64,000 nt of DNA from Flavobacterium ginsengisoli (GTDB taxonomy: Bacteria > Bacteroidota > Bacteroidia > Flavobacteriales > Flavobacteriaceae), in the NCBI RefSeq assembly GCF_029625315.1, contig NZ_CP121110.1, forward strand, positions 1,293,501-1,357,500, read 5' to 3'. Shown piece after piece: positions 3,214-62,874 of the stretch. A program made the position numbers and the translations under genes. The notes below the pieces were generated by a model. It was not told where the DNA came from, made no database searches, and saw nothing but the letters and a program-made list of their open reading frames with translations. Within the stretch, counting starts at the first letter, position 1; every line of letters starts with the position of its first letter.

Positions 3214-5497
3214 ATGAAAAACTTAAGAAACAGTATTTTTTACGTTGGAGTTATCGGAGGATTTTCTCTTTTAATGTATTGGATTATTTTATTGGGAGTA
3301 AAACTAGAAACGGGCCGAAATCTTAAAATTCCAACCTCAGATAAAACGCAATGGAGCGAATTTCTTGATTCTCTTATAAAAAACTTACATCATCCGTTAG
3401 CGCTTTTACTAGCACAAATTGTTACGATTATCTTTGTTGCCCGTATTTTTGGATGGATTTGCATTAAAATAAAACAGCCAGCCGTTATTGGAGAAATGAT
3501 TGCCGGAATTGTAATGGGACCTTCTTTAATCGGAATGTATTTTCCCGAATTTTCTGCGGCTTTATTTCCAGCAGAATCTCTTGGAAATCTTCAATTCTTA
3601 AGTCAAATTGGCTTAATCCTTTTCATGTATATCGTAGGAATGGAGATCGATATGAAGATTCTTAGAAACAAAGCCCATGATGCTGTAGTTATAAGCCACG
3701 CAAGTATTATTATTCCTTTTGTTTTAGGAATGGGTCTAGCGTATTTTATATATGACGAGTTTGCCCCCGCAGATGTACAATTTACATCTTTTGGTTTGTT
3801 TGCCGGAATCGCGATGAGTATCACTGCTTTTCCGGTGCTTGCCAGAATTGTGCAAGAACGTGGCATACATAAAACAAAATTAGGGACAATTGTAATTACT
3901 TGTGCAGCAGCCGATGATATTACAGCATGGTGTATTCTAGCAGTTGTAATTGCGATTGTAAAAGCAGGTTCTTTTGGAAGCGCTTTATATACAGTTGTTT
4001 TAGCTTTAGGTTATGTTTTTTTAATGATAAAAGTAGTTCGTCCGTTCCTTAAACGAATTGGAGATCTATACGCTACAAACGAAAAATTAAGCAAACCAAT
4101 TGTAGCCATTTTCTTTTTGACGCTGGTGGTTTCTTCTTATTTAACAGAAGTTATAGGAATCCACGCTTTGTTTGGAGCTTTCATTGCAGGTGCTATTATG
4201 CCTGAAAACATTAGATTTAGAAATCTCTTTATTGAGAAAGTTGAAGACGTTGCGCTTGTACTTTTATTGCCTCTATTCTTTGTTTTTACAGGTTTAAGAA
4301 CCCAAATTGGTTTGTTGAATGAGCCTTATTTATGGAAAATTGCGGGATTAATTTTTGCAGTAGCCGTTGTGGGTAAATTTGTTAGCAGTATGCTTGCTCG
4401 CCAAATTTGTGGGTCAAAGCTGGAAAGATAGTTTATCTATTGGAGCTCTAATGAATACAAGAGGTCTAACAGAATTGGTTGCCTTAAATATTGGTTACGA
4501 TCTAGGAGTTTTAAGCCCAGAATTGTTTTCTATGTTTGTAATTATGGCGCTTGCCACAACATTTATGACAGGGCCGACATTAGATTTAATCAATTGGCTT
4601 TTTAAATCTAGTAAAGAAGAAAAAGAAGAAGATATTGCGCTAAAAAATAAGTACCGAATTTTATTGTCTTTTGACAGACCAGAATCTGGAAGAGCGTTAC
4701 TTAAAGTGGCTGATGGATTAACTAACAAAAGAGCTGAAAGTTCTGAAATTACGGCAATGCACTTTCTTCCTACCGAAGAATTACATCATTACAACACTGA
4801 TATTTATGAAGATGAAAAATTTAAAGACATTGTAGAAGAGTCTGTTGCTTTAAACAGAAATATTACAACTATGTTTAAAGCCTCTTCTGATATAGACAAT
4901 GAAATTGTAAATGTTGCTAATAAAAGCAAACATGATTTATTATTGGTTGGAATTGGACAATCTATTTACCAAGGAAGTTTACTAGGACGAGTGCTTGGAT
5001 TTACAACCCGAATTATTAATCCTGAAAAGATATTAAATACCGTAACTGGAAAGGAAAACATTTTAGAATCTGCACCTTTTGACGATGGAACAAGACAAAT
5101 TATCGCAAAATCGCATATTCCTGTTGGCGTTTTAATTGACAAGGATTTAACTGATATCAATACGATTTTCATTCCGCTATTTAACTTAAAAGATTGGGAT
5201 TCTATTCAGAACTATGTTCAGAAATTCATTCAGAATATCAATGCGAGAATTGAAATTCTGGATATTGAAGGCAAAATTATGGCTGATCTGGACACAAAAG
5301 AAAAAATTAGGATGATAGAACAAGCGGCTCCAAACCAAATAACTTTGAGAAAAGAACAATCTATTGAAAAAGATTTTCTAGAACACCAAGATCTTATGCT
5401 AATTTCTATTGATGGATGGAAAAATTTGGTAGAGAATAAAAGCCCTTGGCTGGCTAATATTCCTTCTACTTTAATTCTTTCTGAAGATAAAAAATAG
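3214..5497 (+). CDS. CPA2-type cation/proton antiporter (one frameshift in this sequence)
   Basis: This inner-membrane exchanger of the Na+/H+ or K+/H+ antiporter-2 family has about 760 residues once restored. Residues about 50-470 hold the hydrophobic exchanger domain, with IKQPAVIGEMIAGIVMGPSL and the ion-binding acidic pair in AAADDITAW, which in this superfamily is typical of electrogenic exchangers. The remaining ~280 residues are a cytosolic tail that resembles universal-stress-protein folds. As printed the frame stops at 4431. A surplus C at 4399 turns the expected LAAKFVGQSWKDS into a dead end, and the same protein continues in another frame from about 4400. Both halves match one family continuously, so a single gene is intended. 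A rho-independent terminator follows. The transported ion cannot be told from the sequence. Confidence 0.88.
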
Positions 5498-5524
5498 TGT
5501 TTGTTTTTTTGAATTTTATAGTAA

Positions 5525-5557
5525 AAGAACGCCCTCTAAAACAGGCGTTCTTTTTTT
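5525..5557 (+). terminator. Rho-independent terminator of the antiporter gene
   Basis: A nine-base stem (AAGAACGCC pairing with GGCGTTCTT) is followed by a run of T residues, 28 bases after the antiporter stop codon. Confidence 0.85.
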
Positions 5558-5661
5558 GATTTAAAAAATATCTTATACTGTTATTTAAATGTCTTTTTGG
5601 GTAGCTAAGTAAAAAAATGGAAGGGCTAGTTTTAAAAATACTAACCTTAAAACCATTTATT

Positions 5662-6909
5662 ATGAAAAAGTTTAAAAAAACCTAACTCCTTTTTTAGTTT
5701 TTATTATTGTTATATTAATTGCCAGCTGCGGCAATGAAGAAATTGATGCAGGTCAATTAACAAGCCAAAATGCTAAAATTATTCAGGCTAAAGATTGGTT
5801 TGAAAGCTACAAATCAAATTCAGCAACCAGTAAATTGGAGGATGACGAAGTTAATAAGGCTTTCAGAAATCTCGACTACTACTGGGAAAATGCCAAAGTA
5901 ATCAAACTGGGTAACAATGCTAATGGTATCACTGTACCCGTTAAAGACAATCCTGAAGACTCTGATTACAAAGGACAGAAAATGTTATATTTGTATGAAT
6001 CTGACTCAAAATTCCAAGCTCTGATACAAGAGATATTTCCAGAATCAAAAGAAGACATTGATGATGAGCAAAAAAAAGAGGGCTTTCAGGATTTAACTTT
6101 TTTCAGCGGTTATATCATTACTTGGGACTTGAAAAAAGGCTTTTTAAAAGGAGCCAAATTAAAAGACGGTCTTGTCATTGCTGATGTAACAAATGTGATA
6201 ATGTTTCTTGATAAAGATGGCGCGACATCTAAGATGATAGAAATGTTTGATGATAGTTCTAATTATGGTTCAGAACGTGATGACACATTACAAAAAGGTG
6301 GAGCAATTCAATTAAATAATGTTATTGTAACACAAAAAACACCCGCTCCAACTCCTAAAGATTTTAGCATTGTAGGTGCATTTGGCGGAGATGTAGGTTC
6401 AAATGGAAATTATGGAACCCCTACGGGTGGAGGAAATGCTTATGCTGGAGAAAGTGGCAGTACAAATATCGCAACCGCTCCACCTAGTTGTGAGAGTTTT
6501 AATTTTATAAAAGTTACCGGACTTTGGCAAGTAGCGATGGTTAAGAATATTAATTTTAGGGTATTAGGAATAAGTCCAAAAGGTGTTGAAATACTACATG
6601 TTGTTAGTTATCCGCAAGCAATTTACTTTGGTACTCCTACAAATGTAAAGATTGGTAACACAAATATAACAGCAGGGATTGCGAGCAAATACCTCGGCAC
6701 GAATTCTTCAAAAAACTATGCAAGAAGTTGTCGATAAATATGGTGGTACAGATGTCTCAGACTTGACACTTGATTTATATTTTAGAGAGAGATTAGAAAA
6801 CAATTATCAACTCTCAATACCAGGAGCGAGAGTCAAATTTAATTCAACCGAAAACATACCTGCAACTAACTATAAAACAAACACATGGACTGCAGGAAAC
6901 TGTAATTAA
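5662..6909 (+). CDS. Uncharacterised lipoprotein, about 415 residues (two frameshifts)
   Basis: The ATG at 5662 is followed after seven codons by a stop as printed. Adding one A to the A7 run at 5674-5680 gives MKKFKKNLTPFLVFIIVILI-ASC, a textbook lipoprotein signal with the acylated Cys in IASCGNEE. A second indel near 6710-6719 separates the last ~65 codons. Restoring it joins NSSKNYA or NSSKTMQ to EVVDKYGGTDVSDL. The corrected length is a whole number of codons. The mature protein is acidic with a Gly-rich stretch (about 230-270) and two Cys residues late in the chain. I recognise no domain. It leads a cluster with two further unknown genes that ends at a terminator near 7825. Probable location: cell envelope. 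Confidence 0.65.
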
Positions 6910-6921
6910 AATCGATTAATT

Positions 6922-8726: not shown

Positions 8727-11007
8727 TTATTTTTTAATGAATTTATGGGTATAATTGGCTTTATCAGTTACAATATTGACGATGTAAAAACCTTTGGCAA
8801 AATTACTTACATCGATTTGGTTATTGTTTAATTTGGTATTGATAGTTCTTCCTGTTACATCATAAACAACAGCATCTACGATTTCATCTTCTGTACTGAT
8901 ATTTAGATAATCTGCAACTGGATTTGGATAAATAGACAATTGCACTTTCGTAAATTCGTCTCTTCCCAAAGTAGATGTATCAACCAAAATCGATTTTTCA
9001 ATTACTTTTCCGTTAGAATTAAAACTAATCACAATCGTGGCAGTTCCTTTTTCCTTAGGAGTTAAAATCAATTCTTCATTAGCATTAATTTCTGCCGAAA
9101 CAATATTTTCATCACTATTAGATTTTATTGCTTTTACAATTGCTACCGATAAGTTGTCTTCGTCTGAAACCACCGTTTTTAAATCGATAATAGTTGTACT
9201 AACCGTTGAAAGTTTTGAAGGTAAAATCGAATTTACAACTGGCTCTGCATTATCAGGAAATACAGCCATAGATGGAAACCAATAATAGTCGTTCAAAACT
9301 TTTGTGTCGATTAATTTTCCAGTATTATCAAAAGTGTGAATCCAGTTTTTCTGATAATGTGCTCCAAATCCGCTCTCTGTTGTATTTACAATTAAGTTGC
9401 CCGAAACTGGATCAATGCGTAATCCTGCACCATACACAATTTGCTTGTAAGTTCCTGTTTGCCCAGGAAGTGTCGCAAAATTTTCATTGAATGTTTTGGT
9501 GTCAATATCAAATCTTACAATTTGAGCTCCTGCAACAAAACTGCTTACATTATTATTCCAATACAACGCATTTTCTTTATTGCTATAAGTAAAACTTCCT
9601 GCGTTCCAAGCTCCCCAAGAACCTAAATATTTAGTCGTAGGAATGGCATATTCAGTCGTGTCAAAAGTCAGCGGATCAATACTTATCAATTTCTGATTCT
9701 GAATTCCCCAAACACTTCCGTCTTTAGCCTGTATAACTGAATGGAATACTCCAGAAATGGTCTTTATTATAGTATTGGTTTTAGGATCAATTACAAAAAT
9801 TCCGGCATTTTGTTTTACAGCAAAAACATATTGCGAAGTACGAATCATGTTTCCTATTTGTCCAGCATACTGACTTCCTCCGCCAGTTCCATTGACCAAA
9901 TTCCCTACTTTCATATTCACAATATCAAAAAGAAAAATACCATTAGAAGCACCTATGTAACCTGTTTTCTCATCAACACCAATAAAAGAGCGACCATCTC
10001 CTCCTCCAATATCGTTAAATGCTTGCAATTTTTTTCATCGTTAAAGCATCAGCAACAACCAACCTTCCGCCAGGCTTATATTGTGTATCTCCTGAATCTT
10101 GGGCCTGTTTAGAAACAAAATAAAACTTATCTCCGTAAATAGTTCCATATTGTGTAGTCGCCCCAAAAGTATTGTTATCATTCGCTTCGCTGTAAACGCG
10201 ATAATTAATATTTCCGTTATTATCAATAAAATTTACAGATCCGTTTGTGTGTCCATACCAATCTTCATTTACCATAAAATAGCCTTTGGTAAAATCTATT
10301 GTTTTAGAATAAGGAGTAACTGGAGTAAAAGTTGCAACAATATCAAACATTTCCATATTGGGATTAAAATTCCAAACATCCCAAGAACCGTTTTGCAATT
10401 CGCGAGTAGAAGCTCCTACACCAGAATAGCCATAATCGCTTTCTGTCGAATCTTTAACCCAATACGACCAATATCCTGTATACCATCCTGACTGCCAATG
10501 ATCATCTGGATCGATGCCTGTATAAGAATCAAAATCATATTCTGAAGTATTTACTATACCGTCAAAAGGATACAAAGGATAAGTTTTATTTCCATCCTTA
10601 TAAAGTCCATTTGTTCCCGTTCCATTCAAATCGAAGCCAAATCCTGCAATTGCAGATCCGAATTGTGTTCCTTGATAAAGCAATGTAAAGAAACGGGGGT
10701 CAGCCTTTGCAATAGCTTTAATCATGTCTTCTCCAGTTGCAGTTCCATCCCATTTAAAACCCCAAACCAAAGCATCAGAAGTTTTGCCATCGTTCCATTG
10801 CACAACAAATGCCGCTTGATTAGCGCCTGTTCCTACCCAAAATTGGATATCGTCAAAAGTGGTGGCATTGGCGCTTTTTGCTGTTACTTTTTTTTGCGCA
10901 ACTGTTTTTAATTTAGCATCATTTCTAGGAACGCCTTGTACTGTTATTTGCGCATTGGTTATAAATGCAAAAAATAACAAGATTATTATAAAGTAGTTTT
11001 TCTTCAT
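8727..11007 (-). CDS. BtuH-like secreted surface protein with T9SS type A sorting domain (one frameshift)
   Basis: Restored length is about 759 residues. A signal peptide ends in FITNAQ. Residues about 45-330 contain FWVGTGANQAAFVVQWNDGK and ALVWGFKWDGTATGEDMIKA, phrases I associate with surface proteins of Bacteroidota cobalamin loci (BtuH-like). The middle is a beta-propeller-like region resembling DUF5074, and the end is a T9SS type A sorting domain (LSIYPNPVADYLNIS ... ANYTHKFIKK). As printed the gene is split at 10023-10024. Dropping one T there joins DALTMKKIA to AFNDIGGGDGRSF. It is the last gene of the riboswitch-controlled operon, 25 bases after the gene before it. Inferred role: extracellular capture of cobalamin. 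The binding site is not identifiable by eye. Confidence 0.75.
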
Positions 11008-11032: not shown

Positions 11033-12229
11033 TTAGTTAAGATGTAAGTCGTAAGCTCCCGAAACTTCTGTAGAAACTTCTCCAAGCCAACCCGCTTCCT
11101 GATTAATTGCTGTATAGACTTTTACAAAATCAATTCCTGGAAGTTTGACATATTTTCCGTTTTTATCTACCGCCCAAGAAATATCAATATTAGATGCTTC
11201 GTCATTATTTGGTGCATTATCTGCATATCCAAATTCAAACGATTTGCCAACCCAATACGAGCCTTCACCACTCTGATCATAGAAATTGTCTGCTATTTTA
11301 GTTCCTTTTAAAGTATAAGAAGCATCTGCAATCCAAAGCGGATAATAACTTTGATCGTGAAATACATTTTGAACTTTATATCCAGATTTCCCTTCATTGT
11401 CTTGCCATTTAATGTATTCTGTATCAAATTGCCAAAACTCAGTTCCAGTAACTGGCGATTTAGCGAGCATCTGGCTTAAAATAAGTGATCTCGTAATTTT
11501 TTATTGTCGTATTTTTAAAGTACTCGCTTCCTGCAATTTCGTACCATTCATCATCATCTGGTTTTCCATTTTTATTTTTGTCATAAGCGACCATAATAAT
11601 TCCAGGTTCGCAAGATCCCGAGCGTGCTTCGTTGGCTTCATTTCCCCAAAAAGCATTTCCTAAAATCTTGAAATCACGGCCATCCATATTCGGAATTGTA
11701 TGATCGAAACCAAAAACTACATAACCACCAAAACCTCCCAGTGAAACCAATGAAGTATTCGAGCCTACAATTGCTTTTTTGGTCGCTGCAATCATATTGG
11801 CTTGAGTATTTCCTGCTGTGTATTCTGGAATTCCGTTTGTGAACTGGCCAACTGCGGGACGAAAATCAAGTACACTAAAAATATATTTACTGTAAGTTCC
11901 AGCTTCTTTTACCACATTAATAGAAGAAGTATAGACTTTTACTTCTCCGCTAATTTCTACTTTTAAAGTCAGCGGATAATTTTTCTGGAACGGACTAATA
12001 AAATCCAAATCTGTGTTTTCTGAAATAATCGAATCTTTAATACTCCAAGTCAGTTTTGCTCCGCTTGGAAGCGCTGTTGCAATATTTAACACTTTAAAAC
12101 GATCAATTGTGTAGGATTCTTTGAGGACTTCGGCGGGAAGCAAATCTTCCTCTCGGTCGTCTTTATCGCAGGCCACAAATCCCAAAAAGAGAATTGAAAA
12201 TAGAGCGATTTTAAAAGGTTTCTGTTCAT
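11033..12229 (-). CDS. Surface lipoprotein with PKD-like domain, B12 operon (two frameshifts)
   Basis: Restoring one missing T near 12219-12221 gives MNRKPFKIALFSILFLGFVA then Cys, a lipoprotein signal. Without it the frame appears to start at 12185. A surplus G at 11465 splits the gene again, and dropping it joins YFKPDA to AKSPVTGTEFWQ. The ~398-residue product has an N-terminal PKD-like beta-sandwich (SGAKLTWSIKDS ... YPLTLKVEISGE) and a larger C-terminal domain with Asp/Asn-rich, Ca-binding-like phrases (YDKNKNGKPDDDEW). Ten bases separate it from the BtuG-like gene upstream. I infer a cell-surface accessory factor for cobalamin capture from its operon position. The family is found in Bacteroidota cobalamin loci, but I know of no defined biochemical role. 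Confidence 0.7.
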
Positions 12230-13385: not shown

Positions 13386-15431
13386 AACTCAAAACTGATT
13401 ATAAATTTGAATGTTCTTCCTGGCATTGGGTAATTGTAAATCACTTCATATTGCTGATTGAATGCATTATTCATTTCAATTGCTCCATTCAATTTGTAAT
13501 TTCTAAATGCGAAAGATTTCTGAACGGCCAAATCGTGCGTGTACCAAGGCTGAACTTCATTTACTTTAATATTATTGACATTTCCGTTATAGCGTTTTCC
13601 GACATAAATAAAGCTATAGTTGAAGTTCCAAGATTTATAGCCCGCATTCAAAATTCCAGATCCGCTGTGCCAAGGCGTGTACGGAATCTGGTCGCCATAA
13701 GAGGACATTTCTAAACCAACAAACTTTGTAAAATCCTGGCTTTGAGAATACGTATAAGTCAGGTTTGCGGTGAGATTTACTTTATCAATATGAGTCGACA
13801 TATTTAAGACCGTTTCGATTCCTTTTCCTTTAACTTGCCCAATATTGGTCATCATCCAACGAAATAAATTTCCTGTTGGAGCCGCAATAATTTTATCTTT
13901 TGTATTGGTGTAATAAGCATCTGCCTGAAAAGAAAATGTATCGAAAAAGCCTTCCCTAACGGGGAAATTATACGTAAAACCAACATCATACTGATTCATA
14001 TATTCTGGCCTCAAAGTGCTTGAACCAACCATTGTATAATACAAATCATTGAATGTTGGCATTCTGAAAATTCGTTTTGCAAAAGCTCTTAAATTGAAAT
14101 CGTACTTCTTAAACGGTGTATAACCTATAAATATAGCAGGAGTAAATTCGGTTTTGTTGGGTGCTTTGGCATTGTATTTTACTTCTTCGATGACGCGGGT
14201 TGCAAGTACATTTCCTAAAACTTTAAAACCTTCATATCGATACGAAGTGGCAAGAGAAACTAAAGCGGTATAACGCTCGCGGAAAAGAAAACTGTGTCTG
14301 AATACCTCTTCTAGTTGCATTTAATTTATTGTATTGAAAATCGGTCGACAGCGAAACATCCCAAGTTGGTAAAATGCTGTACATATTAACAGCCGAAAAA
14401 TAAGCTTCCTGCTGATAATAACTATCATCAGATTGTGCGCCTTCGGTTACGGTTTCTCCTAAAACATTGGTTGTGTCTCTAGCAATATAATGCGTGTAAT
14501 CGTAAGCAAATTTTCCTTTTAGCTGAAACTTATATTTTTCAGAAACGTCTTTAACTAAGGAAGCCTGAGAGAAAAAATTCTTGTCAAATTGACGAAAACC
14601 ATCTCGAAACTTATTTTCTACAATAGCTCCTGGAGCGCCTCTTTCAGAATCGTAATAATACACTTTCGCGTCCCAAGCTCCTTTATTTAGTTTCCCAAAA
14701 AGCCCAGATTCAAACCTAAAAGCTTCAATATCGCTATTCCATCGCGTTGCTGTAGTATCGTAGGCAGTGCTTCCGTCTTGATTTTTTCTTTTGTATCTAA
14801 ATTTATATTGTCCATTCGACTTAATGTATTCAGAGCTTACACTCATACTGACTTTATCGCTCAGCTTTTGTTCCCATCTAAAAGAAGGATCGTGATAATT
14901 TATAGACATTGTTTTGTAACGAACCAATAGATTTGTTTTTTTATTGCCCGAAAAAGATGGGCGTTTGGTTCGTAAATAAATGGCAGAAGCAGAAGCAAAA
15001 TCTTTAGCCGATTGAAAAATTTCACTTTTCTGGCCATTGTACATCGTCAACGATTCCATGTCGTCAAGCGAATACTTTCCTAAATCGGTTACACCGTTTT
15101 GAGCATTTCCAAGCTGAATTCCGTCATAAAAAACACCAACATGATGCGTGCCCATGTTTCGAACATCAACGGTTTTAAGTCCGCCGACTCCTCCATAATC
15201 TTTAATTTGAGTTCCGGCAAAATAACGAAGAGCATCTGCGACATTATGAGTCGCGAGATTTTCGAGCAGAACACCCGAAAGGCTTTGTACAGGAATTACT
15301 TCCTGATATGGTTTTCCTTTTAAAACAACTTCTTTTAAAACCCGCGAACTATCAGTCACCGCTTGAGAATGAAGCAAAAAAGGAACAAGTACTACAAAAA
15401 CAGAAAATAAAGTTTTCTTCAAATTACACAT
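13382..15431 (-). CDS. btuB: BtuB-like TonB-dependent receptor for cobalamin (one frameshift)
   Basis: Restored length is about 682 residues. It has a signal peptide (MCNLKKTLFSVFVVLVPFLL), a plug domain (LSGVLLENLATHNVADALRY, GGVGGLKTVDVRNMG) and a beta-barrel ending in the aromatic PGRTFKFIISFEL. I prefer the ATG at 15431 over the GTG at 15434. A surplus C at 14278 breaks the frame. Removing it joins QFSFP to QRYTALVSLATSYRY and fits the family. It is the first gene after a cobalamin riboswitch, which is the main reason for naming the substrate. It lacks the long CarboxypepD-like N-terminal extension of SusC proteins. It should import cobalamin across the outer membrane using TonB energy. 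Confidence 0.85.
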
Positions 15432-15797: not shown

Positions 15798-16704
15798 TTA
15801 ATCATGATTAACCATTTGTCTAAAAAGCATTAACGTTCCTTTTTCGTTTCTTTTCCAGACGTTTATACTTTTTCCTTTAACGTTTCCGTGGTTGGTTCCG
15901 TCACGCCAATCGACATTATAAAATCCAAATTCTACAATGGCCTTTTTTGTGACAATAACTCCCGAAGTCTGAATGGAGATTTGTTCAATTTTTAAAGTTC
16001 CAGGTTTTTCATGCTCTGTAAAATAAGCTGTAATATCTTTTTCTCCAGAAAGAATTGGCGTATAGTACGTTAAATACATCGCATCTGGCGTGAACATTTT
16101 TGCATGCTCTGCTCCCAGTCTATTCTGAACCAAATTTTTAATAGAACCGTTTCTTTCTATTACTTCATTAATCAATTTGTCTGACGAAGTGTACTCTTTT
16201 GTTAAAGGAACTGTTGTGTCATCAATTTCAGGAATAAATCTATCATCAAAATAACTATTAGCACCCCAAATTTCTGCTTGCGATAGTCATTTTATTTTTA
16301 GACGTTTTTTTCCATAAAACCATATATTTTCCTAAATAAGCGTACGGTTTTAAGTCTTTTAAGTGCAGGTTTTCAGTAAAATTTCCAATTTCTAGAATAT
16401 AATTTCCAAAATCCTGCAATTCTAAAATAGTCTTTTGAAAAGAATTGACTTTTGCCTGATCTAACCATTGTTCATAAAACGCCGCAATCATTTTCTTTCC
16501 AACTCTTTGCCTATTATGTTCTGGCATTAACACAGATTGATCTGTATAGAATTTTAGCATCATGTCCTTATTGTTTTCAAATAAGGCACTACAAAAGCAA
16601 GCATTATAATCTTCAATTTGTTTTCTAACATCTGAGTCTGTTTTATTTTCTTGAGAAAAAACACTAACTACAAAAAAAAGAAAGGCTAAACTTAACTTAA
16701 TCAT
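15798..16704 (-). CDS. Secreted protein with two SnoaL/DUF4440-like domains (one frameshift)
   Basis: The ATG at 16704 opens a signal peptide (MIKLSLAFLFFVVSVFS). Residues about 25-140 form one NTF2-fold SnoaL/DUF4440-like domain (YNACFCSALFENNKDMMLKF, SVLMPEH, GKYMVLWKK). A surplus T at 16278-16279 stops the frame at 16258. Dropping it continues as AEIWGANSYFDDRFIPEI into a second copy of the domain (about 175-300: ILSGEKDITAYFTEH, GKSINVWKRN), so the product is a ~301-residue tandem duplication. These folds serve as small-molecule isomerases or binding proteins, or as unknown ketosteroid-isomerase-like proteins. No catalytic assignment is possible. It is transcribed away from the B12 promoter region and is probably not part of that operon. 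Confidence 0.65.
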
Positions 16705-17659: not shown

Positions 17660-18146
17660 ATGCAAATCCAGCCTATACAAAATAAGTACGAAAATGAAAT
17701 CGTAGATTTGATTTTAAACATTCAGCAAAAAGAATTTAATGTTCCTGTTACTCTAGAAGATCAGCCAGATTTATTGGATATTGAGAATTTCTATTATAAA
17801 CCAGGCGGAATTTTTCTTGGCGCTTTTATAGAAGAAAAATTAGTAGGCACAATCGCTTTGGTAAAATTCAATTCTGAAGCTGGAGCCATCAGAAAAATGT
17901 TCGTAAAAAAAGAATACCGAGGAAAAGAATTTCAAATCGCTCAACAATTATTAGAACAACTAATTGCTTATAGCAAAGAAAAAGGAATTAAAGACTTATA
18001 TTTAGGAACGGTTACACTGTTACAAGTCTGCTTTACGTTTTTATGAGAAAAATAATTTTGTTACGATACCAAAAGAAACGCTCCCAACAGATTTTCCGTT
18101 AATGAGGCCCGACAATGTATTTTGTCATTTAAAACTAAATCAATAG
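17660..18146 (+). CDS. GNAT N-acetyltransferase (one frameshift)
   Basis: The restored protein has about 161 residues with the GNAT acetyl-CoA signature region AGAIRKMFVKKEYRGKEFQI and the C-terminal LYLGTVTLLQAALRFYEKNNF. As printed the frame ends at 18046 because of one surplus T at 18027, which changes the expected QAALRFYEKN. After correction it stops with TAG at 18144-18146, three bases before the MarR gene. The CoA loop reads YRGKEF in place of the usual QxxGxG/A, so activity is likely but the loop is slightly degenerate. It is co-transcribed with the regulator behind a palindromic operator, a common arrangement for self-protective acetyltransferases. The substrate is unknown. Confidence 0.8.
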
Positions 18147-25377: not shown

Positions 25378-28300
25378 TTGGAGAATCTGCACTTTATCAA
25401 AAAAACTAGCTTTTGCTTCGCATTGTTAATTTTTCTCACTTTTCAAACAAATGCACAAAACTGTACTGTAAACGCCGGAGTATTGAATATAACCATTTGC
25501 GCAACCGATGCAATGGTTTTAACTGGAAACAATCCGAGTCCTATTATTGGCACAGTCAAATGGACTCAAATCTCTGGTCCAGCAGTAACTATTAATTCAC
25601 CAACAAGCCCAAGTACAACCGTTTCTGGCTACACAGGAGGAAATACCTATATTTTTAGATATAGCGCAACCTGTTCGGACGGAATTACAGCTTATCAGGA
25701 TAAAGTTGTAAATGTTAAGCCTATTACTACCGCAATTGCAGGAAGCAACATAACAAGCTGTCCAAATAGTTCTGGAAATTTATCTATTACGGCAAATGCT
25801 CCTCAAAATACAGGAGAAACTGGCCGTTGGGAAATCGTCGGAGCTAACAATGCCGGGGTAGTAATTAATTTTCCAGATCTGCCAACCTCAACTATAACTT
25901 TGCCTTCTACGAGTTGCGGTGTTACAACACTTCAATGGGTTATAGAAGGTCCTGAATATGCTCCAGGCCAGCGCTGTAGAACTACTTCGCAAATAACTGT
26001 AACCAATTATGGCGGTGTTAAACCTGTTTCAGCAGGACCAGATCAAACGCTTAGCAATTGTTATACTACAACACAAAGCACCAATCTTAATGCAACTTAT
26101 GGAGGTTGCGGCCTAAATGGACAAAATGGGCAATGGACTTTTGTAAGTGGTCCAAATACGCCAACAATTGCCAATCCTAGTGCTAATAATACAGGAGTTT
26201 CAAATCTTGTACAGGGAACTTATACTTTTAGATGGACTGTAACTGGTCCTTGTGCTTCTGGCAATGATACAGTTGTAATTAATGTTCCTGCCGCGACACA
26301 AGATGTTACGACTCTTCCTGGTGGCGATGAAAATATTTTCTTTTGCGACAACAATATTAATCAAGTAACTTTAGTAGCACAAACTCCTTTATATGCAGGT
26401 GAAACCGTTCAATGGACACAGATAGCTGGAGATACTGGCGCTGTAATTGTTTCGCCAACAAATCCAACTACATTAGTTACAAATATATCTGATGCTGGTG
26501 ATCCATATACATTTAGATATACGCTTACCAATAACAATACGGGTTGTGTTTTTACTAAAGACTATCATGTAGAATATAACGGTGCAACAAGAAGTATTGT
26601 GGCCAATAATGGCGATGATATGGTTGGAAGCTGTAATGCAACTGTATTTACTATTCCGCTTACCGTAACAGGAACTGGAGTAAATCAATATCGAATTGTG
26701 ACAGGACCAGACACTTCTCCGCTCGCCCCTTTCCCTACTGCATTACAAGATGCCGGAAATTCTTTGACTTTAACGCTTACTACACCAGGAGAATATACTG
26801 TCGAATTTATTAGAAGCCAAAACGGATCAATTCTTGCTGGCTGCGATTATGGCTTTGACACTCTAAATATTCTAGTTTCTGGTGATCCTACTCCATCTAA
26901 TGCAGGATCTGATGTAAGTTTGCCTTGCGGTGATACCAGTACAATGCTTTCTGGAGTTGTAACTGGCGAAGGCATGCATTTCTGGAGTCAGCTTAGCGGA
27001 CCAAATCAGGCAGTGATTGCAGATAATTTTGCCATAGATACTCAGGTCACCGGACTTATTCCTGGAAGTTATGTCTTTCAATATATAACCAAAGGGGGCG
27101 GCGCAACTTGTGGTTTTTCAGTTGCCACAGTAACTATTTATGTATCTGATACGACATTGGGTACTCCAAATGCAGGACCGGATCAGATTGTTTGTGCCAA
27201 TTCTCAAGTACGTCTTGGAGCTGCACCAGTTGAAGCAGGCGAAATTGGCACATGGAGTCAGGTCTCTGGACCAACTACAATTTCGTTTTCCAATGTTAAC
27301 GACCCAAATGCGATAGCCTCAGGTTTTACGACAAATGTATCGCAATACGAATTACAATGGACTGTTTCTTATCTTCATCCTGGTCCATCTTGTAGTGCAT
27401 CTGCTTCTGACAATGTAATAATCGTAACGAATAATTCTACAGCAGCCTCAACCTCAGATGCAGGCCCAGATGCCTGTTATCCTTCTGGAACAACCTCTTT
27501 TAACCTCAGCGGTAATACTCCTGGCTTTTTAGAAATAGGACTTTGGTCTGTAACACCATCAGCTGGAGTTATTTTTGCCGATACCAGCGATCCAAACACC
27601 TTAGTTACCGTTCCTGGAAACGGAACCTATGTTTTCACGTGGTCTATAGAAACCATAACAAGACTTTGTGAACCAAATCAGAGCAACGTTTCTGTTACAA
27701 TTGCCAATACTCCTCCTGCCGCAAATGCAGGTCCTGATCAAGAAATCTGTGGATCTACCATTACAATGGCCGCTACAACTAGCAGTGGAGCAATTGGAAC
27801 TTGGACAAGAATTTCTGGTGTTGGAGACTATACCATAAGCGATATTCATGACCCAAACGCAGTTTTTACTTTTACCTATAGTGGTTATTATATTTTTAGA
27901 TGGACAGTAGATGCTTCGGTCTGCGGTCAAGCATTCGACGACGTTAATTTAACAATTGGTATTCCGCCTCACCAAGCTGTTGCAGGACCAGACCAAAATG
28001 TCTGTGGCAATACTAGCGTTACAATGGCAGGAAGTACGTATGACAGTTTTTTTGAAACAGGACAATGGTCAGTTCTAACTGGTGCGCCAAATCAGCCCAA
28101 TATTGTTGATCCGACTAATCCAAACACTGTCATTAATGGGCTTGTAGCCGGAACTTATACCTTTAGATGGACCATAACTGCAAAAAGCATTTTCTTGTGC
28201 CAAGGAACTTTTGATGATATGGTTGTAGTGGTTACCCCAGCGGCAAATGCAGGAGCTGATCAGACTTATTGTGATGTTACTAGCATTCAGCTTACAGGAA

Positions 28301-40101: not shown

Positions 40102-41084
40102 TTATTCTGTTAGCAAAACAAAACTTTTTGCATCTGCTTTGATTTTATTTCCTTCAAAATCAATATCGATTATTGCTCGCTTTTCTTGGAGAAACACCGC
40201 TATTGCTAAAATGTGTATGCGAGCACATACTTCATTTTTCCGTTTTTATCATAAAAAACATCACCGTGACCTACTCCATTTATGCCAACATCTTTTCTGC
40301 TAATTATCGGACTTTCAGTTGCTTTTTCCCAAGGTCCCATTGGACTTGAAGCTGTCGCATAACCCACTGCATAATCGGGATTTCTAAAATCGTTTGCAGA
40401 ATAAATCATATAATACAGATTATTGTGTTTTAAAACTGTCGGACCTTCTGTAACTGGCCATGAAACATTCTGGGTATTTTCCCACGGCAGAACACCAGAA
40501 ATACATTCTTTCAGCGTTTCTTCTTTTATTCCAGAGAAATCATTATTCAATTCAGCTACAAAAATTCGGTTTCCATTAGTCAAACGCACGTGATAAAGGT
40601 ACTTTTTGCCGTCCTGATCAACAAAAAAGAAAGGATCAATCTGTTTGCCCGAATTAAACATTGAAGCCTTAGAATCGTTTTTAAATGGCCCAAGCGGACT
40701 ATCACTACTTGCAATGGCAATATTCTCATCGGCAGTATAAATCATATAAAACTTATTGTTGCTTTTAAAAACTTGCGGTGCCCAAAAACCTTTCGTTCCA
40801 TAAGCGTCTCCTTTTTTTAATGCCAGTCCATTTTGCGCTCCAATAGGACCTTTCCATTTTTTCAAATCGGAAGAAGTGTACACTTGAAAACCTTCTCCAT
40901 TAGGAAAATCTCCCGTGGTTGTTCCGTACAAATAATAAACTCCATTTTCGTAAAAAATAGTTGGATCTGCCAACAAGATTGGTTGATCTTTTGAAGTCGT
41001 TTTTTTAACCGTTTCTTTATCTTGAGAACAACAAACAAAGACACAAAACAGACTTAAAAGCGTAAAATATTTTTTTATTTCCAT
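40102..41084 (-). CDS. GH43-family glycoside hydrolase, lipoprotein-like (two frameshifts at its 3' end)
   Basis: The N-terminus MEIKKYFTLLSLFCVFVC with CSQDKET is a lipoprotein signal. The GH43 five-bladed propeller shows the general-base Asp in LLADPTIFYENGVYYLYGT, the pKa-modulating Asp in KQIDPFFFVDQDG and the acid Glu in WPVTEGPTVL. As printed it ends early at 40206. Two surplus bases, at 40221 and 40178, must be dropped, giving YVLHTHFSNSGVSPRKAAII and then DIDFEGNKIKADAKSF to a TAA at 40102. HTHFS and SPRKAA are standard for the C-terminal blade. The product is about 326 residues and is the last gene of the PUL. Likely arabinofuranosidase or xylosidase. Surface location is inferred from the signal. 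Confidence 0.85.
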
Positions 41085-41280: not shown

Positions 41281-42457
41281 CTATTTAGCCGAAAATTGAT
41301 ACAAAGAAACCGTATGATACTTCTCTCCTGCCTTTAAAGTTATTTGAGGGAATTTTGGCTGATTTGGCGCATCTGGAAAGTGCTGTGTTTCTAAAGCGAA
41401 AGCAGTTCTAAAATCATCTTTAGCACCTGATTTAAAGGTGTTTTTACTTTGCATGAAGTTTCCGCTATAAAATTGTAATCCAGGCTCTTCTGTATAAATA
41501 TCTAAAGTAATACCTGAAACATCACCTTTAATCGTTGCCGCATGAACAAATCCGTCTTTTTTAGCCCCATTAAGCACATAATTATGGTCATAACCTTTTC
41601 CGAATTTCAGCTGTTCGTCTTTGTTTTCTATTCTTTCGCCAATTTTATGTTTTGATGTAAAATCGAATGGTGTATTTTTTACCGATTTCAATTCTCCAGT
41701 CGGAATCAAACCTTCATCAACGGGTGTAAATTTATCTCCGTAAATCTGTAATTCGTGATTTAAAATTGTTCCGCTTCCTTCTCCATTCAAATTGAAAAAG
41801 GCATGATTGGTTAAATTAACAATCGTAGTTTTATCCGTTGTAGCTTCATATTCCATTTTTATTGCATGATCATCTGTAATAGAATAAGTTACTTTTACAT
41901 TTAGATTTCCGGGAAAGCCTTGTTCTCCATCTGGCGAAGCATACGTAAAAACCAGCGTATTCTCATTTGTCTTTTCAGCATTCCAAACAACGTCTTGAAA
42001 CCCTTTTATACCACCGTGCAGCGCATTTTTTCCGTTATTAAGCGGAATTTGATATTGCTTTCCTTCGAGCGTAAATTTGCCTAATGCAACTCTGTTGCCA
42101 ACTCTTCCGATTGTAGCACCAAAGTAAGGTTCCGTGGAGTTTTTAAAGCCTTTTACGCTATTCATTCCGACTACGACATCGGTTGGTTTTCCATTTTTAT
42201 CCTTAACCCATAAACCTACTAATCGCCCGCCATAGTTGGTAAAAGCAACTTTTATGTCTTTATTTTCGATCCAATACAAACTGACTTTTTTACCATCGAT
42301 TATTGTGTCGAAGTTTTTAGTCTCTAAAACCGTTCTTATCGAATCTTGTTTGATTTCTGAGCTTTCTTTTGAAGTCGTATTTTCTTTTTTATTGTCTTTA
42401 CAGTTAAATTGGAAAAGTACAAGCAACAAAACTGCAAGCAATTTGAATATTTTTCAT
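41281..42457 (-). CDS. galM: Aldose 1-epimerase (GalM), exported lipoprotein form (one frameshift)
   Basis: Restoring the frame by dropping one A at 42436-42437 lets the protein start at an ATG (42457) with MKNIQIAAVLLLVLFQFN then Cys, a lipoprotein signal. Otherwise the frame can only begin at TTG 42441. The ~391-residue body is a standard GalM beta-sandwich: FGATIGRVGNRVALGKF, NGKNALHGG (catalytic His), LTNHAFFNLNGEG (second active His) and ALETQHFPDAPNQPKFP (catalytic Glu). It interconverts alpha and beta anomers of galactose or related sugars. Being exported and inside the PUL, it likely converts monosaccharide products in the periplasm before uptake, which hints at galactose- or arabinose-type sugars. 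Confidence 0.9.
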
Positions 42458-43602: not shown

Positions 43603-45412
43603 TTAATTCAAAGCATTGATAACCTCCGTATTAATTTTGTTCACAGCTTTAAAATCCATTTTATCTACTTTTCTATCGTAAGTCATAAAACCGTTTACTT
43701 CGCCTTCAACATCGGTTGTTTGAGTATAGACTGCAGCCGAGAATCCCGTTTTAACGTATTTTCGAAGCGTTTCCGCGTACTTTTTGTATTCGGCGGTAAC
43801 TTCTGCCTCATTCTTAAATTTGATGTATCCCCAGTTGTCATTTGCTCTCCAAAGATGTCCTTCTAACGGAAGACCGATTCCGCCATACTCTCCCAAGACG
43901 GTAACTCTTCTAGCATCGTACAAATACATATCTGGACCAGGATAATTGTGTAAATCTAAAATATCGCCCGTTTGAAAGTGATTTCCTCCGCTTGCAGAAT
44001 TAATCAGACGCGTTGAATCATGATTTTTGGTCCATTCTGTAATTTCAACAGTTTTAAATTGCCCCCAAGCTTCGTTAAACGGAACCCAAACCACAATACT
44101 TGGGTAGGAATACAGATGATCCATAATTTCACGCCACTCTTTTCTGTAGATTTCTTCTGATTTTGCCGAACGCTGTAATTCTGTTCCTTCAAAATACTTT
44201 CTATTTTGCCAAACTGGCTGATCGTCTCCACTTGGCATATCTTGCCAAACCAAAATTCCTAACTGATCGCAATGCGTATACCAGCGCTCCGGCTCGACTT
44301 TTACGTGTTTACGAATCATATTAAATCCTAGTTCTTTGGTTTTAACAATGTCGTATTTCAAAGCTTCATCAGTTGGCGCTGTATACAATCCGTCTGGCCA
44401 CCAACCTTGGTCAAGAGGTCCGAATTGAAAATAATCTTTGTTGTTTAATTGCATTCTCACGATTCCGTTTTCATCGCGTTTAGAAGAGATTTTTCGCATC
44501 ACAAAATAACTCTTTACCTCATCAACCACTTTGTTTTTGCTGATTAAGCGAATTTTTGTCTGATATAAAAACGGGCTTTCAGGCGACCACAGTTTCGGAT
44601 TATTCAAAACAATATCGTTGCTTTCGCCTACAACCGCTTTTTCTTTAGCAATCTCTTTTCCGTTATCGAAAACAGAAATTTCAACTAAATCTCCTTTTTC
44701 TGCTCCATTTGCCTCCGCTTTTATTCTAATCGTATTTTGATCAATATTTGGCGTTGTTTTTAATGCTCGCAATGTTTTTAGCATTTACAGGCTCAATCCA
44801 AACCGTCTGCCAGATTCCGGTAACAGGCGTGTACCAAATTCCTTCTGGATTTTTGACTTGTTTTCCTCTTGGTTGAGGCCCATCGTTGGAAGGATCCCAA
44901 ACTTTTACAACTAGCTTTTGATTTTTCCCTTTTTGGATGAATGGCGTAATGTCAAACGAAAATGGCGTATAACCTCCCGTATGCGAACCCACTTTTACAT
45001 CATTCACAAAAACTTCTGTTTTCCAATCGACAGCACCAAAATGCAAAAGGATATTTTTTCCATTCCAGCCCGATTCAATCGAAAATTGAGTTTCGTACCA
45101 AAGTTCATTTTTAGCACCAACTTCTTTCATCACGCCAGACAAACTCGATTCGGTCGCAAACGGAACCAAAATCTGCCCGTCATATTTTGAAGGCGCTGCT
45201 TTTCCAAATTCTTGAATGCTATAATTCCACAAACCATTCAGATTTTTCCATTGGCCGCGCTCCATAATCGGACGGGGATATTCGGGTAAAGTTTTCTTCG
45301 GATCAACCTGCTCTGCCCATTTGGTCTTGATTTTATCACCTTGTGGTTTCCATTGCGCATTTACCGCAAACATGGATAACAAGGCTAAAAAAAGGATGCT
45401 TTTTCTTTTCAT
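43603..45412 (-). CDS. GH2-family glycoside hydrolase (one frameshift)
   Basis: Restored length is about 602 residues. A signal peptide (MKRKSILFLALLSMFAVNAQ) is followed by the sugar-binding beta-sandwich (GQWKNLNGLWNYSIQ, ILLHFGAVDWKTEVFVNDVKVG, WIEPVNAKNI), an Ig-like domain and the TIM barrel with the acid/base Glu in VVWVPFNEAWGQF and the nucleophile Glu in VTVLGEYGGIGLPLEG. As printed it splits at 44768, where one surplus C changes IAALKTTPNID. The family contains beta-galactosidases, glucuronidases and mannosidases, and the substrate is not set by these motifs. Its place among GH43 enzymes and GalM suits debranching of galactose or arabinose side chains. It is secreted and probably periplasmic. 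Confidence 0.88.
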
Positions 45413-48066: not shown

Positions 48067-49592
48067 TTAATATCCAGAGTTCTGCTCTAGATTTGGATTA
48101 TTATCTACATCACTTTGCGGAATTGGCATTCTGTGATTTTTTCCAACTGTGAAGTTTTTAAAATCTGGATCACGAAGCGCAATTTTATCAACAGAAGCTT
48201 GAGAATTTAAATCTCCCCAACGTTTTAAATCTTCCCAACGCACGCTTTCGCCACACAATTCCAAAACTCTTTCCATTTTCAAACGCTCTAGGAATTTGTC
48301 GTGATCGTTTCCAATTTCAGGATGTGCTGTCGCCAATGCATTCATATTTGCACGAGCTCTAACTAAATCAACATACTGATACGCTTGAGCAGTATTTCCT
48401 AATTCGTTTAAAACTTCCGCGTAGCGCAATAAAATATCCGCATAACGAACCAATCTGTAGTTTACTTGGTTGTAGTAATCTTCGTTGTTTCTGTAATAAT
48501 CGCGGCTTCCTTTTCTAAACCAAGCTTCATTATTGTTCCATTCCCAGTTTCTTCCGTATGTTTTGTCTCCAAAATCGGCTAATAACTGAGGGTAGAATAA
48601 AGTCCATCTTAACCTTTCATCCAATTTTCCGTCTTTATTGTTTTCTTGTTTAAAAGCATCCACTAACCAAATACGCGCTTGTCCGTCAGACCATCCAATT
48701 CCTCTTGGCGCGAAAAACTGAGAACGGTTGCTAGAAACTGCTTGCATTTTGCGCTTCATCAGTTCCTCCTTTTCTTTGGTCTCCAAACTGGATTTCAAAA
48801 ACAGATTCGGCATTATTTTCATTTGTATCCGTAAAATTATCTCTGTAGTTAGATACCAAACTGTACTTCGCTCCTGCTCCAGAAATTAAAAACTCAAGAG
48901 CTCCTTTTGCTTCATTCCATTTGTGCTGTTGCATATATACTTTGGCAAGAAAGGCCTTTGCGGCACCTTTATCTGGTCTTCCTAATTGATCAGCTGACCA
49001 ATCTCTTGGCAAATCTTCAAAAGCTTCATTCAAATCTTTTTCTACTTGAGCCCATATTTCGTCTACCTTTACTTGTTTTGGCAAATCTGCTGGCGTAGAC
49101 GGATCTAAAACTAATGGCACATCTTCCCAAATTACACCTGCATAATAGTAGTGTAATGCTCTAAAGAATTTAGCCTGCGCGATAATTTTCTTTTTATCAT
49201 CTTCGTTCTGAAAAGTGATATTCGGAACATTAGCCAAAACCTGATTACATCTAAAAATAGCTTTATAAGTATCTCTCCACGTTACGGCATTTCCTTCCCA
49301 AAAATTATAATTGATATAATTGAATCTAGTCCAATCTGCCAATTCTGTCCACGGACTCACGCTATAACCTTCATCAGAAGTTAAATCCAGACGGAAATAA
49401 ATCCATCTCGCCCACAAACCGTCTTTATAAAACATGGCATAAATAGAGTTTACACCGGCTTGTGCATCACTTTCAGTTTTCCAATATTGGTCTACTGTAA
49501 TATCATTTGGGCTATTCAAGTCCAATTCGTTTTCACAAGCGGTAAAAACAAGACCTAGAAAAGTCTGCTGTTATAATTATTATTTTTTTCAT
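48067..49592 (-). CDS. susD: SusD/RagB-family glycan-binding lipoprotein (two frameshifts)
   Basis: Restored length is about 507 residues. Dropping one T at 49564 gives the start MKKIIIITAAFLGLVFTA then Cys (lipobox FTAC), 22 codons before the first in-frame Met of the printed frame. A second surplus T at 48743 separates the C-terminal half; dropping it joins DEAQNAAVSSNRSQFF. The TPR-like SusD scaffold is visible (IIAQAKFFRALHYYYAGVIW, RPDKGAAKAFLAKVYMQQHKW), and so is the RagB C-terminus (RYADILLRYAEVLNELGN, RMPIPQSDVDNNPNLEQNSGY). It caps the SusC transporter at the outer surface and binds oligosaccharides. It lies 17 bases after the SusC stop, which is usual. Confidence 0.93.
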
Positions 49593-59464: not shown

Positions 59465-59491
59465 TATAGTAAACCTTTTACTTTGAGAAAA

Positions 59492-61035: not shown

Positions 61036-61280
61036 TTCTTTTTAATATTTAAATTAAAACTATACTACAAATATAAGACGAGTTGAAATCTCTTAATTGG
61101 TATATATTGAGTGTATATTTGTATATTTTTTTCAAAGAGGCTAAGGTTCTAAGTTGCTAAGAGGCTAAGTTTTTTAAGCAGGTTTTATTGAATGCCTGCT
61201 AAGAAATTAAACATATAGTCCTAATATCTTCGCGACTATGTATTTAAATAAAGCCTTAAATTTGCTAAAAATACTACACT

Positions 61281-61838: not shown

Positions 61839-61845
61839 TTATAGA

Positions 61846-62280
61846 ATGAAAAACATCACAATATTAGAAGCTGGTTTAATTTTAAGAATAGTTTTAGGAA
61901 TTACAATGCTTTCGGCCGTAGCAGACCGATTTGGAGTTTGGGGCGCACCGGGATCTAACGCAGTCGCCTGGGGAAATTGGGAAAACTTTGTTATCTACAC
62001 ACAAACCCTAAATTCTTTTGCCAACAGAGCCACAGCAGAAGTTCTTGCAGGAGTTGCCACTTTCTTTGAAGTTTTACTGAGTCTTCTACTATTATTTGGT
62101 TTCAAAACCAGACTTGCCGCTTTAGGAACTACCATTTTAATGTTCTTTTTTGCTTTTGCCATGTCGGTTTCCGTTTCTGTAAAAGCGCCTCTTGATTATT
62201 CTGTTTGGACAAGTTGTGCGGCAGCTTTACTATTGGCTAATATTGGAAAAACGTCTTACGCTGTTGACAATAGAATATAG
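61846..62280 (+). CDS. DoxX-like membrane protein, 144 residues
   Basis: This four-helix integral membrane protein has LILRIVLGITMLSAVADRFG at the start, then an extramembrane loop (WGNWENFVIYTQTLNS), AEVLAGVATFFEVLLSLLLL with FGFKTRLAALG, and a final helical pair. The layout matches the DoxX/MauE type. It follows a GNAT gene by eight bases. Function unknown; such proteins are often linked to redox homeostasis. A hairpin repeat follows the stop. Confidence 0.82.
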   Translation: MKNITILEAGLILRIVLGITMLSAVADRFGVWGAPGSNAVAWGNWENFVIYTQTLNSFANRATAEVLAGVATFFEVLLSLLLLFGFKTRLAALGTTILMFFFAFAMSVSVSVKAPLDYSVWTSCAAALLLANIGKTSYAVDNRI

Positions 62281-62288
62281 CTTTTTGA

Positions 62289-62372
62289 GTTGATGGTTTT
62301 TGGTTGATAGTTGATGGGTTAAAAACTTTTCCTAACAACCAAAAACTATCAACTATCAACCAAAAAATCAAT
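62289..62372. repeat. Imperfect inverted repeat after the GNAT-DoxX unit
   Basis: The TTGATGGTTTTTGGTTGATA tract at 62290 is mirrored by AACTATCAACCAAAAAATCA near 62370. It lies between convergent genes and could end both transcripts. Confidence 0.65.
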
Positions 62373-62874
62373 TCACATCTTTTTTCGGAAATAAATTCGT
62401 TTTGGAAATTGATCTTCTATGCTTTCCTCCAAATCAAATTCTTCGTAATTCAATAATCGTAATATGTCGATTAAAGCGGTATCTACGGCAAAAGCTTTCA
62501 CCCAGATTAAATCATGTTTTCGCTGGTAAGCAATTTCTTCGGCACGTTTAATAAGCGCTTTTAAATCTTCTTCATCAAAATAAATAATCTCACTTAGATT
62601 AATTGCTTTTGACGCTCCTAGATTTTCGTTTAATATTCTCGACGAATCCAATTTTAAATAAGATTGTGGTGCTTCACCAAGATATGCCATTAGAATTTCG
62701 ATCGAAAAATCATTCTGAATTCGAAACAATTCTTTTTGAGAAAGATGCTCGCTCTGCATATTTTTCTCCCAAATCTTTTTCCCTAAATAAATTGGTATAA
62801 AACTGAACGGCTTTGTCTTCCATCCAAGAGACATTATCATTAATAATGACAACAAATTTTGCAATTCTACTCAT
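62373..62874 (-). CDS. Divergent GNAT-like protein, 166 residues (one frameshift)
   Basis: The ATG at 62874 begins MSRIAKFVVIINDNVSWMED. The frame is broken by one surplus C at 62750. Dropping it joins KYAEQH to LSQKELFRIQNDF, after which the protein reaches 62373 without a stop. The later half follows the GNAT strand-helix order (ILMAYLGEAPQSYLKLDSSR, NLSEIIYFDEEDLKALIKRA, DLIWVKAFAVDTALIDILRL, LLNYEEFDL), but the CoA-binding QxxGxG/A loop is replaced by FDEEDLKAL. So it may bind no acetyl-CoA or use another donor. It lies 100 bases downstream of an AraC gene on the same strand. Function unknown. Confidence 0.65.

Follow-up and report, generated by a model that had tools for sequence, protein, structure and literature searches.

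Why should so many genes in one stretch of a soil Flavobacterium chromosome be broken by a single surplus base, and so often at the same pentamer? The stretch, referred to here as the window, comprises 64,000 nt (positions 1,293,501 to 1,357,500 of NZ_CP121110.1, forward strand) of the 5.41 Mb chromosome of Flavobacterium ginsengisoli (GCF_029625315.1), one of the genomes in a GTDB-derived species collection. An initial annotation of the window had counted 13 of about 21 gene-breaking indels on GCTGC or GCAGC (together, GCWGC) and attributed them to a modified base misread in long reads. The same-species assembly IB48 (97.9% identity) was used as the main reference, and LPB0248 and F. anhuiense served as further references, both as outgroups for polarising changes. 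The main region aligned with IB48 covered 381 kb and two extra regions 184 kb, for a total of about 565 kb. Motifs were counted over whole genomes in 121 Flavobacterium, among them the same-species genome G103, and selected sites were surveyed in named genomes at 60 loci each.

The letters at all thirteen coordinates were as the initial annotation had given them, and at every one of these sites IB48 was one base shorter. The underlying GCWGC was read in IB48 at 12 of the 13 sites and at the thirteenth, 44768, in LPB0248. Overall, LPB0248 could be aligned at 11 of the 13 sites and was one base shorter in all 11, with GCWGC in seven. F. anhuiense was aligned at eight, being one base shorter at seven and longer by five at the other, with GCWGC at four. 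The sites, in window coordinates and with no strand assigned, are as follows.

4395 to 4402: disturbed GCWGC site 4399; IB48 one base shorter, with GCWGC; LPB0248 and F. anhuiense not aligned.
10020 to 10027: disturbed GCWGC site 10024; IB48 one shorter, with GCWGC; LPB0248 one shorter, without GCWGC.
11462 to 11469: disturbed GCWGC site 11465; IB48 one shorter, with GCWGC; LPB0248 one shorter, without GCWGC.
14274 to 14281: disturbed GCWGC site 14278; IB48 one shorter, with GCWGC; LPB0248 one shorter, without GCWGC.
16275 to 16282: disturbed GCWGC site 16279; IB48 one shorter, with GCWGC; LPB0248 not aligned; F. anhuiense five longer.
18023 to 18031: disturbed GCWGC site 18027; IB48, LPB0248 and F. 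anhuiense each one shorter, each with GCWGC.
40174 to 40181: disturbed GCWGC site 40178; IB48 one shorter, with GCWGC; LPB0248 and F. anhuiense one shorter, without GCWGC.
40218 to 40225: disturbed GCWGC site 40221; IB48 and LPB0248 one shorter, both with GCWGC; F. anhuiense one shorter, without GCWGC.
42434 to 42441: disturbed GCWGC site 42437; IB48, LPB0248 and F. anhuiense one shorter, each with GCWGC.
44764 to 44771: disturbed site 44768; IB48, LPB0248 and F. anhuiense one shorter; GCWGC in LPB0248.
48739 to 48746: disturbed GCWGC site 48743; 58 of 60 named-genome loci one shorter, two with no match; GCWGC in 52.
49560 to 49568: disturbed GCWGC site 49564; 56 of 60 named-genome loci one shorter, one longer, one two shorter, two with no match; GCWGC in 26.
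62746 to 62753: disturbed GCWGC site 62750; IB48 and LPB0248 one shorter, both with GCWGC.

Site 44768 is the sole named site without GCWGC in IB48. Among its 60 named-genome loci, 49 were one base shorter, one was of the same length and ten had no match, with GCWGC in two and another sequence in 48. For site 62750 eight of the 60 loci matched, all eight of them one base shorter and two with GCWGC.

Between the window and IB48 we found 42 frame-changing indels, 26 of which lay inside IB48 ORFs of at least 100 aa. At GCWGC were 19 of these 26 (16 one-base gains, one two-base gain and two one-base losses), so that the concentration originally described stands while the tally of 13 in about 21 was an undercount. 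Given that 0.76% of positions are in reach of GCWGC, the probability of at least 19 in 26 is about 3e-35, and coincidence is indeed implausible, as had been supposed. The 381 kb main alignment contained 178 one-base insertions, 71 of them with GCWGC in the IB48 context, and a count of indels per pentamer, a check put forward with the original claim, gave GCAGC/GCTGC the top insertion rate among pentamers with at least 60 sites. GCTGC sites common to IB48 and LPB0248 were changed here in 111 of 211 cases, against 11 of 111 in the reverse direction (p=4.6e-15); when polarised with F. anhuiense as outgroup, the corresponding figures were 73/136 and 10/75. No excess of polarised change was seen here at GCCGC/GCGGC (8/69 versus 14/75), and a specificity of GCNGC or GCDGC is unsupported because GCCGC lacks such an excess. 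At GCWGC sites intact here, IB48 carried one extra base in none of 272. The two further regions (184 kb) replicated the pattern: of 231 GCWGC sites, 105 were the same, 95 had same-length changes, 29 had one extra base and two were otherwise changed.

Over the whole genome TGCTGC occurs 1374 times here versus 3220 in G103, while a reversed control motif is about equally frequent in the two (712 and 722). At 254 per Mb, on rounded genome sizes, TGCTGC is at its lowest among the 121 Flavobacterium genomes, the next value being 355 in G058. The ratio of TGCTGC to control fails, taken alone, to single out the genome (1.93 here, 1.16 in G049 and 1.38 in G074); it stands out by TGCTGC per Mb together with the comparison with near relatives. 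Both on aligned stretches and genome-wide, then, the errors focus on one short motif, and among the relatives compared the GCWGC changes are peculiar to the F. ginsengisoli assembly.

The survey against IB48 covered 742 GCWGC sites, of which 408 were altered and 334 unaltered, in agreement with the partial effect first noticed. One extra base was present at 100 of the 408. The 308 altered sites without it, which include real differences, were about three times commoner, and the same-length misreadings GTCGC, GCCGC and GTTGC had been overlooked by the initial annotation. GTCGC was the commonest altered form (105/408), and GTTGC made up 33 of the 408. The forms GCT[Y]GC and GTCTGC, to which attention had been drawn, proved to be the three commonest length-changing ones. 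Alteration varied with the flanking base. Homopolymers of eight were shorter here in 25 of 103 cases and longer in two, and those of nine were shorter in 13 of 33 and longer in one; for homopolymers of four the numbers were 8 of 7323 and seven.

The GCWGC changes are blind to coding constraint and to gene conservation. Altered sites were equally frequent in the four quartiles of gene conservation (27/50, 24/50, 26/50 and 25/51), and substitutions at GCWGC produced 47 amino-acid changes to 21 synonymous ones, other substitutions 650 to 3554. One extra base was found at 75 of 486 coding and 6 of 22 non-coding GCWGC sites, which is not different; frame-changing indels off GCWGC avoided coding sequence about 17-fold. 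The sole full-length FtsH gene, whole in IB48, is broken into two parts here; in other bacteria ftsH is an essential gene. A tyrS gene located at 1.43 Mb and broken at GCWGC was dropped as proof of a lost essential gene because an intact paralogue is present. Copy number was looked up for four genes (tyrS, rpoB, gyrA and ftsH), one of which serves the argument. Family names were sought for 40 of the 65 genes broken at GCWGC in the main region (four lay across tile borders and 21 were left out) and for 20 of the 25 in the two extra regions (two across tile borders, three left out).

A methyltransferase had been predicted elsewhere in the genome, and a fitting C5 candidate was found. This 328-aa putative C5-cytosine methyltransferase (G000:C1:4007468-4008451) matches PF00145 over profile positions 2-324 of 324 (E=8.6e-85, 285 bits versus a cut-off of 22), has M.HhaI as its best solved relative (E=3.1e-56) and contains the motifs GFPCQPFS, ENV, NRER and GNSVS, which, in an alignment of seven of the sequences found, are invariant in all but the neighbours of one or two residues. 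The PC of GFPCQPFS we take to be the catalytic motif of C5 methyltransferases. The gene adjoins a vsr-like gene (TIGR00632, 145.8 bits versus a cut-off of 97.85), as it does in six of six relatives examined, at partial length in one. The genome has two PF00145 genes. The second directly precedes an HpaII-type endonuclease gene (L158 1306-2481 and 2478-3629; 4-base overlap), which matches the full RE_HpaII profile (PF09561, 1-359 of 359, E=1.5e-93). Since the other PF00145 gene is thus paired, GCWGC falls by elimination to the 328-aa enzyme, which, judged from these gene predictions, presumably methylates it. Depletion of TGCTGC was found in none of the 16 other holders of a relative of the methyltransferase among the 121 genomes (12 with 80-99% and four with 66-70% identity to it; IB48 included), which have 561-836 per Mb; G124 and G127, single-contig and presumably long-read assemblies, are among these holders.

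We infer the sequencing platform, the chemistry and the cause: the extra bases are very probably long-read, most likely nanopore, consensus errors at GCWGC with methylated cytosine. The modified base proposed at the outset is supported by the site excess, its absence in relatives with a close copy of the enzyme, the indifference to coding and the fitting C5 methyltransferase. The resident 328-aa enzyme would methylate GCWGC, the signal at the C-T step would be distorted when the GCTGC strand is read, and the basecall there would be TC, CC, TT, CTT, CTC or TCT. Opposite-strand reads would mostly vote correctly, so that about half of the sites would come out wrong, according to the flanking bases; the partial effect could be increased by incomplete methylation. 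Because a methylated base would be misread at GCWGC, the gene breaks observed are, in the majority of cases, most likely assembly errors, absent from the living bacterium.

A less likely origin of the signal, and one we consider rather doubtful, is that a different enzyme from the 328-aa methyltransferase methylates adenine on the GCAGC strand or sets some other mark. Seen from that strand, the usual alterations replace A by G at position 3 and G by A at position 4, both of which m6A could yield, and the adenine families PF02384, PF02086 and PF07669 lay outside the profile search. PF01555, which was included and holds many m6A and m4C enzymes, had no match in the genome, however, and the GCWGC enzymes in the literature are, as far as these accounts go, m5C (PMC5608340, PMC8936443) or m4C (PMC6329791). 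The pairing of the other C5 enzyme with an HpaII-type endonuclease and CCGG also leaves one C5 enzyme and one motif. That the GCWGC k-mer is itself hard to call, with no modification involved, is very improbable: flanking-base dependence and homopolymer shortening do show general basecalling limits, but the similar k-mer GCCGC/GCGGC is unaffected and G124 and G127 are not depleted. Real mutation in the living strain, such as 5-methylcytosine deamination or a mutator at GCWGC would cause, is scarcely credible, and a biological origin, the more surprising one from the start, can hardly be the main cause: C-to-T change at a methylated cytosine is established biology, the genome has the methyltransferase together with a vsr-like repair gene, the C-to-T form GTTGC occurs and part of the 408 are true differences (the polarised comparison gives 11 of 111 for IB48 itself), but codon effect and gene conservation are ignored, the only full-length ftsH is broken, and deamination is rejected on account of the commonest form GTCGC, which requires two adjacent changes, of the non-synonymous bias and of the lack of loss in the 16 other holders.

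Misreading of methylated GCWGC in this assembly is a new instance of an already published error type. Nanopore errors at GCAGC/GCTGC are described for Listeria monocytogenes ST87, where they survive polishing, are linked to a methyltransferase-bearing defence locus and are gone after whole-genome amplification (PMC10687267). The two cases are alike in the pentamer and in being systematic and genome-wide. They differ in that mismatches dominate in the Listeria account (PMC10687267), which says that indels are not the source, a point against the reading favoured here, whereas 100 of 408 altered sites in Flavobacterium carry an extra base; moreover, the phylum is another and the Flavobacterium case is known from assembly letters alone. 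A limited literature search found no report of GCWGC nanopore errors in Flavobacterium. M.Pin25611FIII of Prevotella intermedia, an m5C methyltransferase for GCWGC listed as orphan, protected the C at position 2 at 66% of sites in bisulfite analysis of amplicons (PMC5608340). It too is an m5C methyltransferase from a Bacteroidota species, but is listed with a controller gene, while the Flavobacterium enzyme lies beside a vsr-like gene, and the two are likened by description, not sequence. M.BatI, likewise compared by description, is reported as an orphan GCDGC-specific m5C methyltransferase that methylates GCWGC on both strands and half-methylates GCSGC too (PMC8936443), whereas GCCGC/GCGGC is not raised here.

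Broken genes, apparent scarcity of GCWGC and lower completeness (95.52% for this assembly versus 100 for G103) would mislead studies of gene content and evolution. Scaling the roughly 565 kb aligned (408 altered sites, 100 of them lengthened) up to the whole genome gives an expected 3,900 or so altered sites, a minority of them real differences, and 950 extra bases. Assemblies of this kind can be recognised, and methyltransferase targets suggested, without raw data, from the loss of a motif and the gain of its misreadings in comparison with a close relative. We give an even chance to the broader proposition that the letters of a finished assembly record the strain methylome, with the error motifs alone, and no reads, assigning GCWGC to an orphan enzyme kept with vsr across a soil Flavobacterium clade and CCGG to the HpaII-type pair.

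The signal at CCGG is far weaker than at GCWGC. One-base losses affected 8 of 188 CCGG sites versus 53 of 23112 sites of 15 other palindromic tetramers (p=3e-8), and at CCGG sites shared with LPB0248 change was not different (14/62 versus 9/57). The pair, predicted here from genes, resembles HpaII-type restriction-modification in the order of C5 methyltransferase and full-length RE_HpaII and in this excess of one-base loss, which the second methyltransferase would explain.

Further observations run against the favoured reading of methylated GCWGC misread in long reads. Neither rpoB nor gyrA is broken here, and of the seven GCWGC sites in the rpoB locus six are unaltered. With LPB0248 as outgroup, though not with F. 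anhuiense, AGCT (60/607 versus 28/577) and TGCA (67/803 versus 40/767) were raised; both partly overlap GCWGC. Alteration along the DNA is not random: adjacent GCWGC sites agree slightly above expectation (0.556 versus 0.503, p=0.003), and sites near another GCWGC are altered less often (31/90 versus 377/652). The spared clusters and the neighbour agreement may faintly reflect methylation that varies along the chromosome.

The 13 extra bases that the initial annotation had placed within GCWGC (GCAGC/GCTGC) all carry the letters it stated. At each, the close same-species assembly IB48 is one base shorter; IB48 has GCWGC at 12 of these places, and the relative LPB0248 has it at the thirteenth. 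The concentration of frame-breaking indels on this motif was also recovered, but the earlier figure of 13 in about 21 was too low: 19 of 26 such indels in IB48 genes of the window fall on GCWGC. In a larger aligned region, 97 of the 295 IB48 ORFs aligned over their full length have a frame-changing indel, located at GCWGC only in 50, at GCWGC and elsewhere in 15, and elsewhere only in 32.

The genome under study (G000; one contig of 5,414,540 bases, completeness 95.5%), in which the window occupies G000:C1:1293501-1357500, is 97.9% identical to IB48 across 381 kb. A 1190-aa protein encoded in the window has its closest named relatives in Flavobacterium (IB48, 100%; LPB0248, 99%; F. tagetis, 98%). 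IB48 is probably a short-read assembly, judging by NODE names and coverage in its contig labels, which we take to be short-read assembler style. It appears to be the same-species member of our 121-genome Flavobacterium set, since a methyltransferase described below lies at the identical place in both.

In three regions totaling ~565 kb, 408 of 742 GCWGC sites are written differently than in IB48, as GTCGC (105), GCCGC (63), GCTTGC (44), GTTGC (33), GCTCGC (30), GTCTGC (22) and rarer forms. GCWGC shows the strongest pentamer loss (271 vs 510 in IB48) and GTCGC the strongest gain (255 vs 169). Genome-wide, TGCTGC occurs 1374 times, against 3220 in the same-species genome (reversed control, 712 vs 722). 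Alteration varies with the flanking base (TGCTGC, 229/355; CGCTGC, 34/95). Sites within 6 bases of another GCWGC are less often altered (31/90 vs 377/652), as noted at the rpoB locus (G031:C33, ~55.6 kb) and other clustered sites, and neighboring sites are concordant beyond chance (p=0.003).

The change lies predominantly in G000. Among GCTGC sites shared with LPB0248 as outgroup, 111/211 are altered here and 11/111 in IB48; with F. anhuiense (G006) the values are 73/136 and 10/75. In the reverse check, IB48 had an extra base at none of 272 GCWGC sites present in G000. The polarized test covered GCTGC and 16 control entries, which represent 15 distinct motifs, since GCTGG and CCAGC are reverse complements of each other. 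With LPB0248 as outgroup, p<0.05 was reached by GCTGC, AGCT and TGCA alone, the latter two partly overlapping GCTGC; with G006, only GCTGC and GCTGG/CCAGC did so, the latter in the opposite direction (5/142 vs 17/153).

The initial annotation considered a biological cause the less likely one, and the GCWGC changes, being indifferent to conservation, codon effect and coding status, are very unlikely to be mainly biological. The altered fraction is independent of gene conservation (27/50, 24/50, 26/50, 25/51). Same-length changes are protein-altering in 47 cases and silent in 21, the opposite of other substitutions (650 and 3554). One-base gains at GCWGC show no avoidance of coding sequence, affecting 75/486 sites within it and 6/22 outside. 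The remaining frame-changing indels do show such avoidance, with 88 across 334.7 kb of coding sequence and 193 across 43.8 kb of non-coding sequence. The sole full-length FtsH, intact in IB48 (641 aa), is split into two frames (415 and 251 aa) by a single break at a GCWGC. Counting against error, rpoB and gyrA are both unbroken. A broken tyrS is weakened as support by an intact second copy:

G000:C1:1427365-1428505, tyrosyl-tRNA synthetase gene, broken in G000, whole in IB48
G000:C1:4081297-4082589, second tyrosyl-tRNA synthetase gene, whole in IB48

Homopolymers of length 8 are shorter in G000 at 25/103 and longer at 2, those of length 9 shorter at 13/33 and longer at 1; at length 4 the two directions are about equal (8 shorter and 7 longer among 7323). 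Homopolymer indels mark nanopore data, according to PMC10687267.

The methyltransferase that the annotation expected elsewhere in the genome has a candidate. G000 has two PF00145 genes and no match to PF01555:

L158 1306-3629 (G000:C1, ~3.19 Mb), C5 methyltransferase gene, the next gene encoding an HpaII-family endonuclease
L159 1037-2439 (G000:C1, ~4.007 Mb; 3.9-kb stretch), C5 methyltransferase (328 aa) and an adjoining vsr-like gene in back-to-back arrangement

In IB48 the counterpart of the first methyltransferase is 97% identical, and the adjoining endonuclease just 31%. CCGG shows one-base losses at 8/188 sites, against 53/23112 at 15 other palindromic tetramers (381 kb aligned to IB48); all eight lie within IB48 genes, and none of 178 sites shows the reverse. 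This is a second motif-specific error signature. Because the first gene pairs with an HpaII-family endonuclease and CCGG has its own losses, the 328-aa enzyme is, by elimination, the predicted GCWGC methyltransferase. It adjoins vsr in 6/6 relatives examined. Sixteen other genomes of the 121 hold relatives, 12 at 80-99% identity and 4 at 66-70%; the latter may be paralogs, since the single-contig genome G124 has one of each (94% and 68%), with TGCTGC not depleted. All 16 have 561-836 TGCTGC per Mb, vs 254 in G000, so carriage of the gene does not deplete the motif.

The letters commonly altered are positions 2-3 of GCTGC on the T-bearing strand. In the simplest model, the position-2 C would be methylated, distorting the signal over the C-T step. 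Opposite-strand reads would mostly vote for the correct letters, leaving about half of the sites wrong; incomplete methylation could be another source of unaltered sites.

Published work describes nanopore errors at GCAGC/GCTGC in Listeria ST87 (PMC10687267), GCWGC m5C enzymes in Prevotella (PMC5608340) and as M.BatI (PMC8936443), and a GCWGC enzyme of the m4C type, M.AbaBS3I (PMC6329791). G000 is a further instance, from a different phylum than Listeria, in which extra bases are prominent in the error signature and a candidate enzyme can be named. The window also contains an open frame of 3723 aa (25378-36549), presumably the giant gene of the initial annotation, followed by an OmpA-domain protein (37541-39469).
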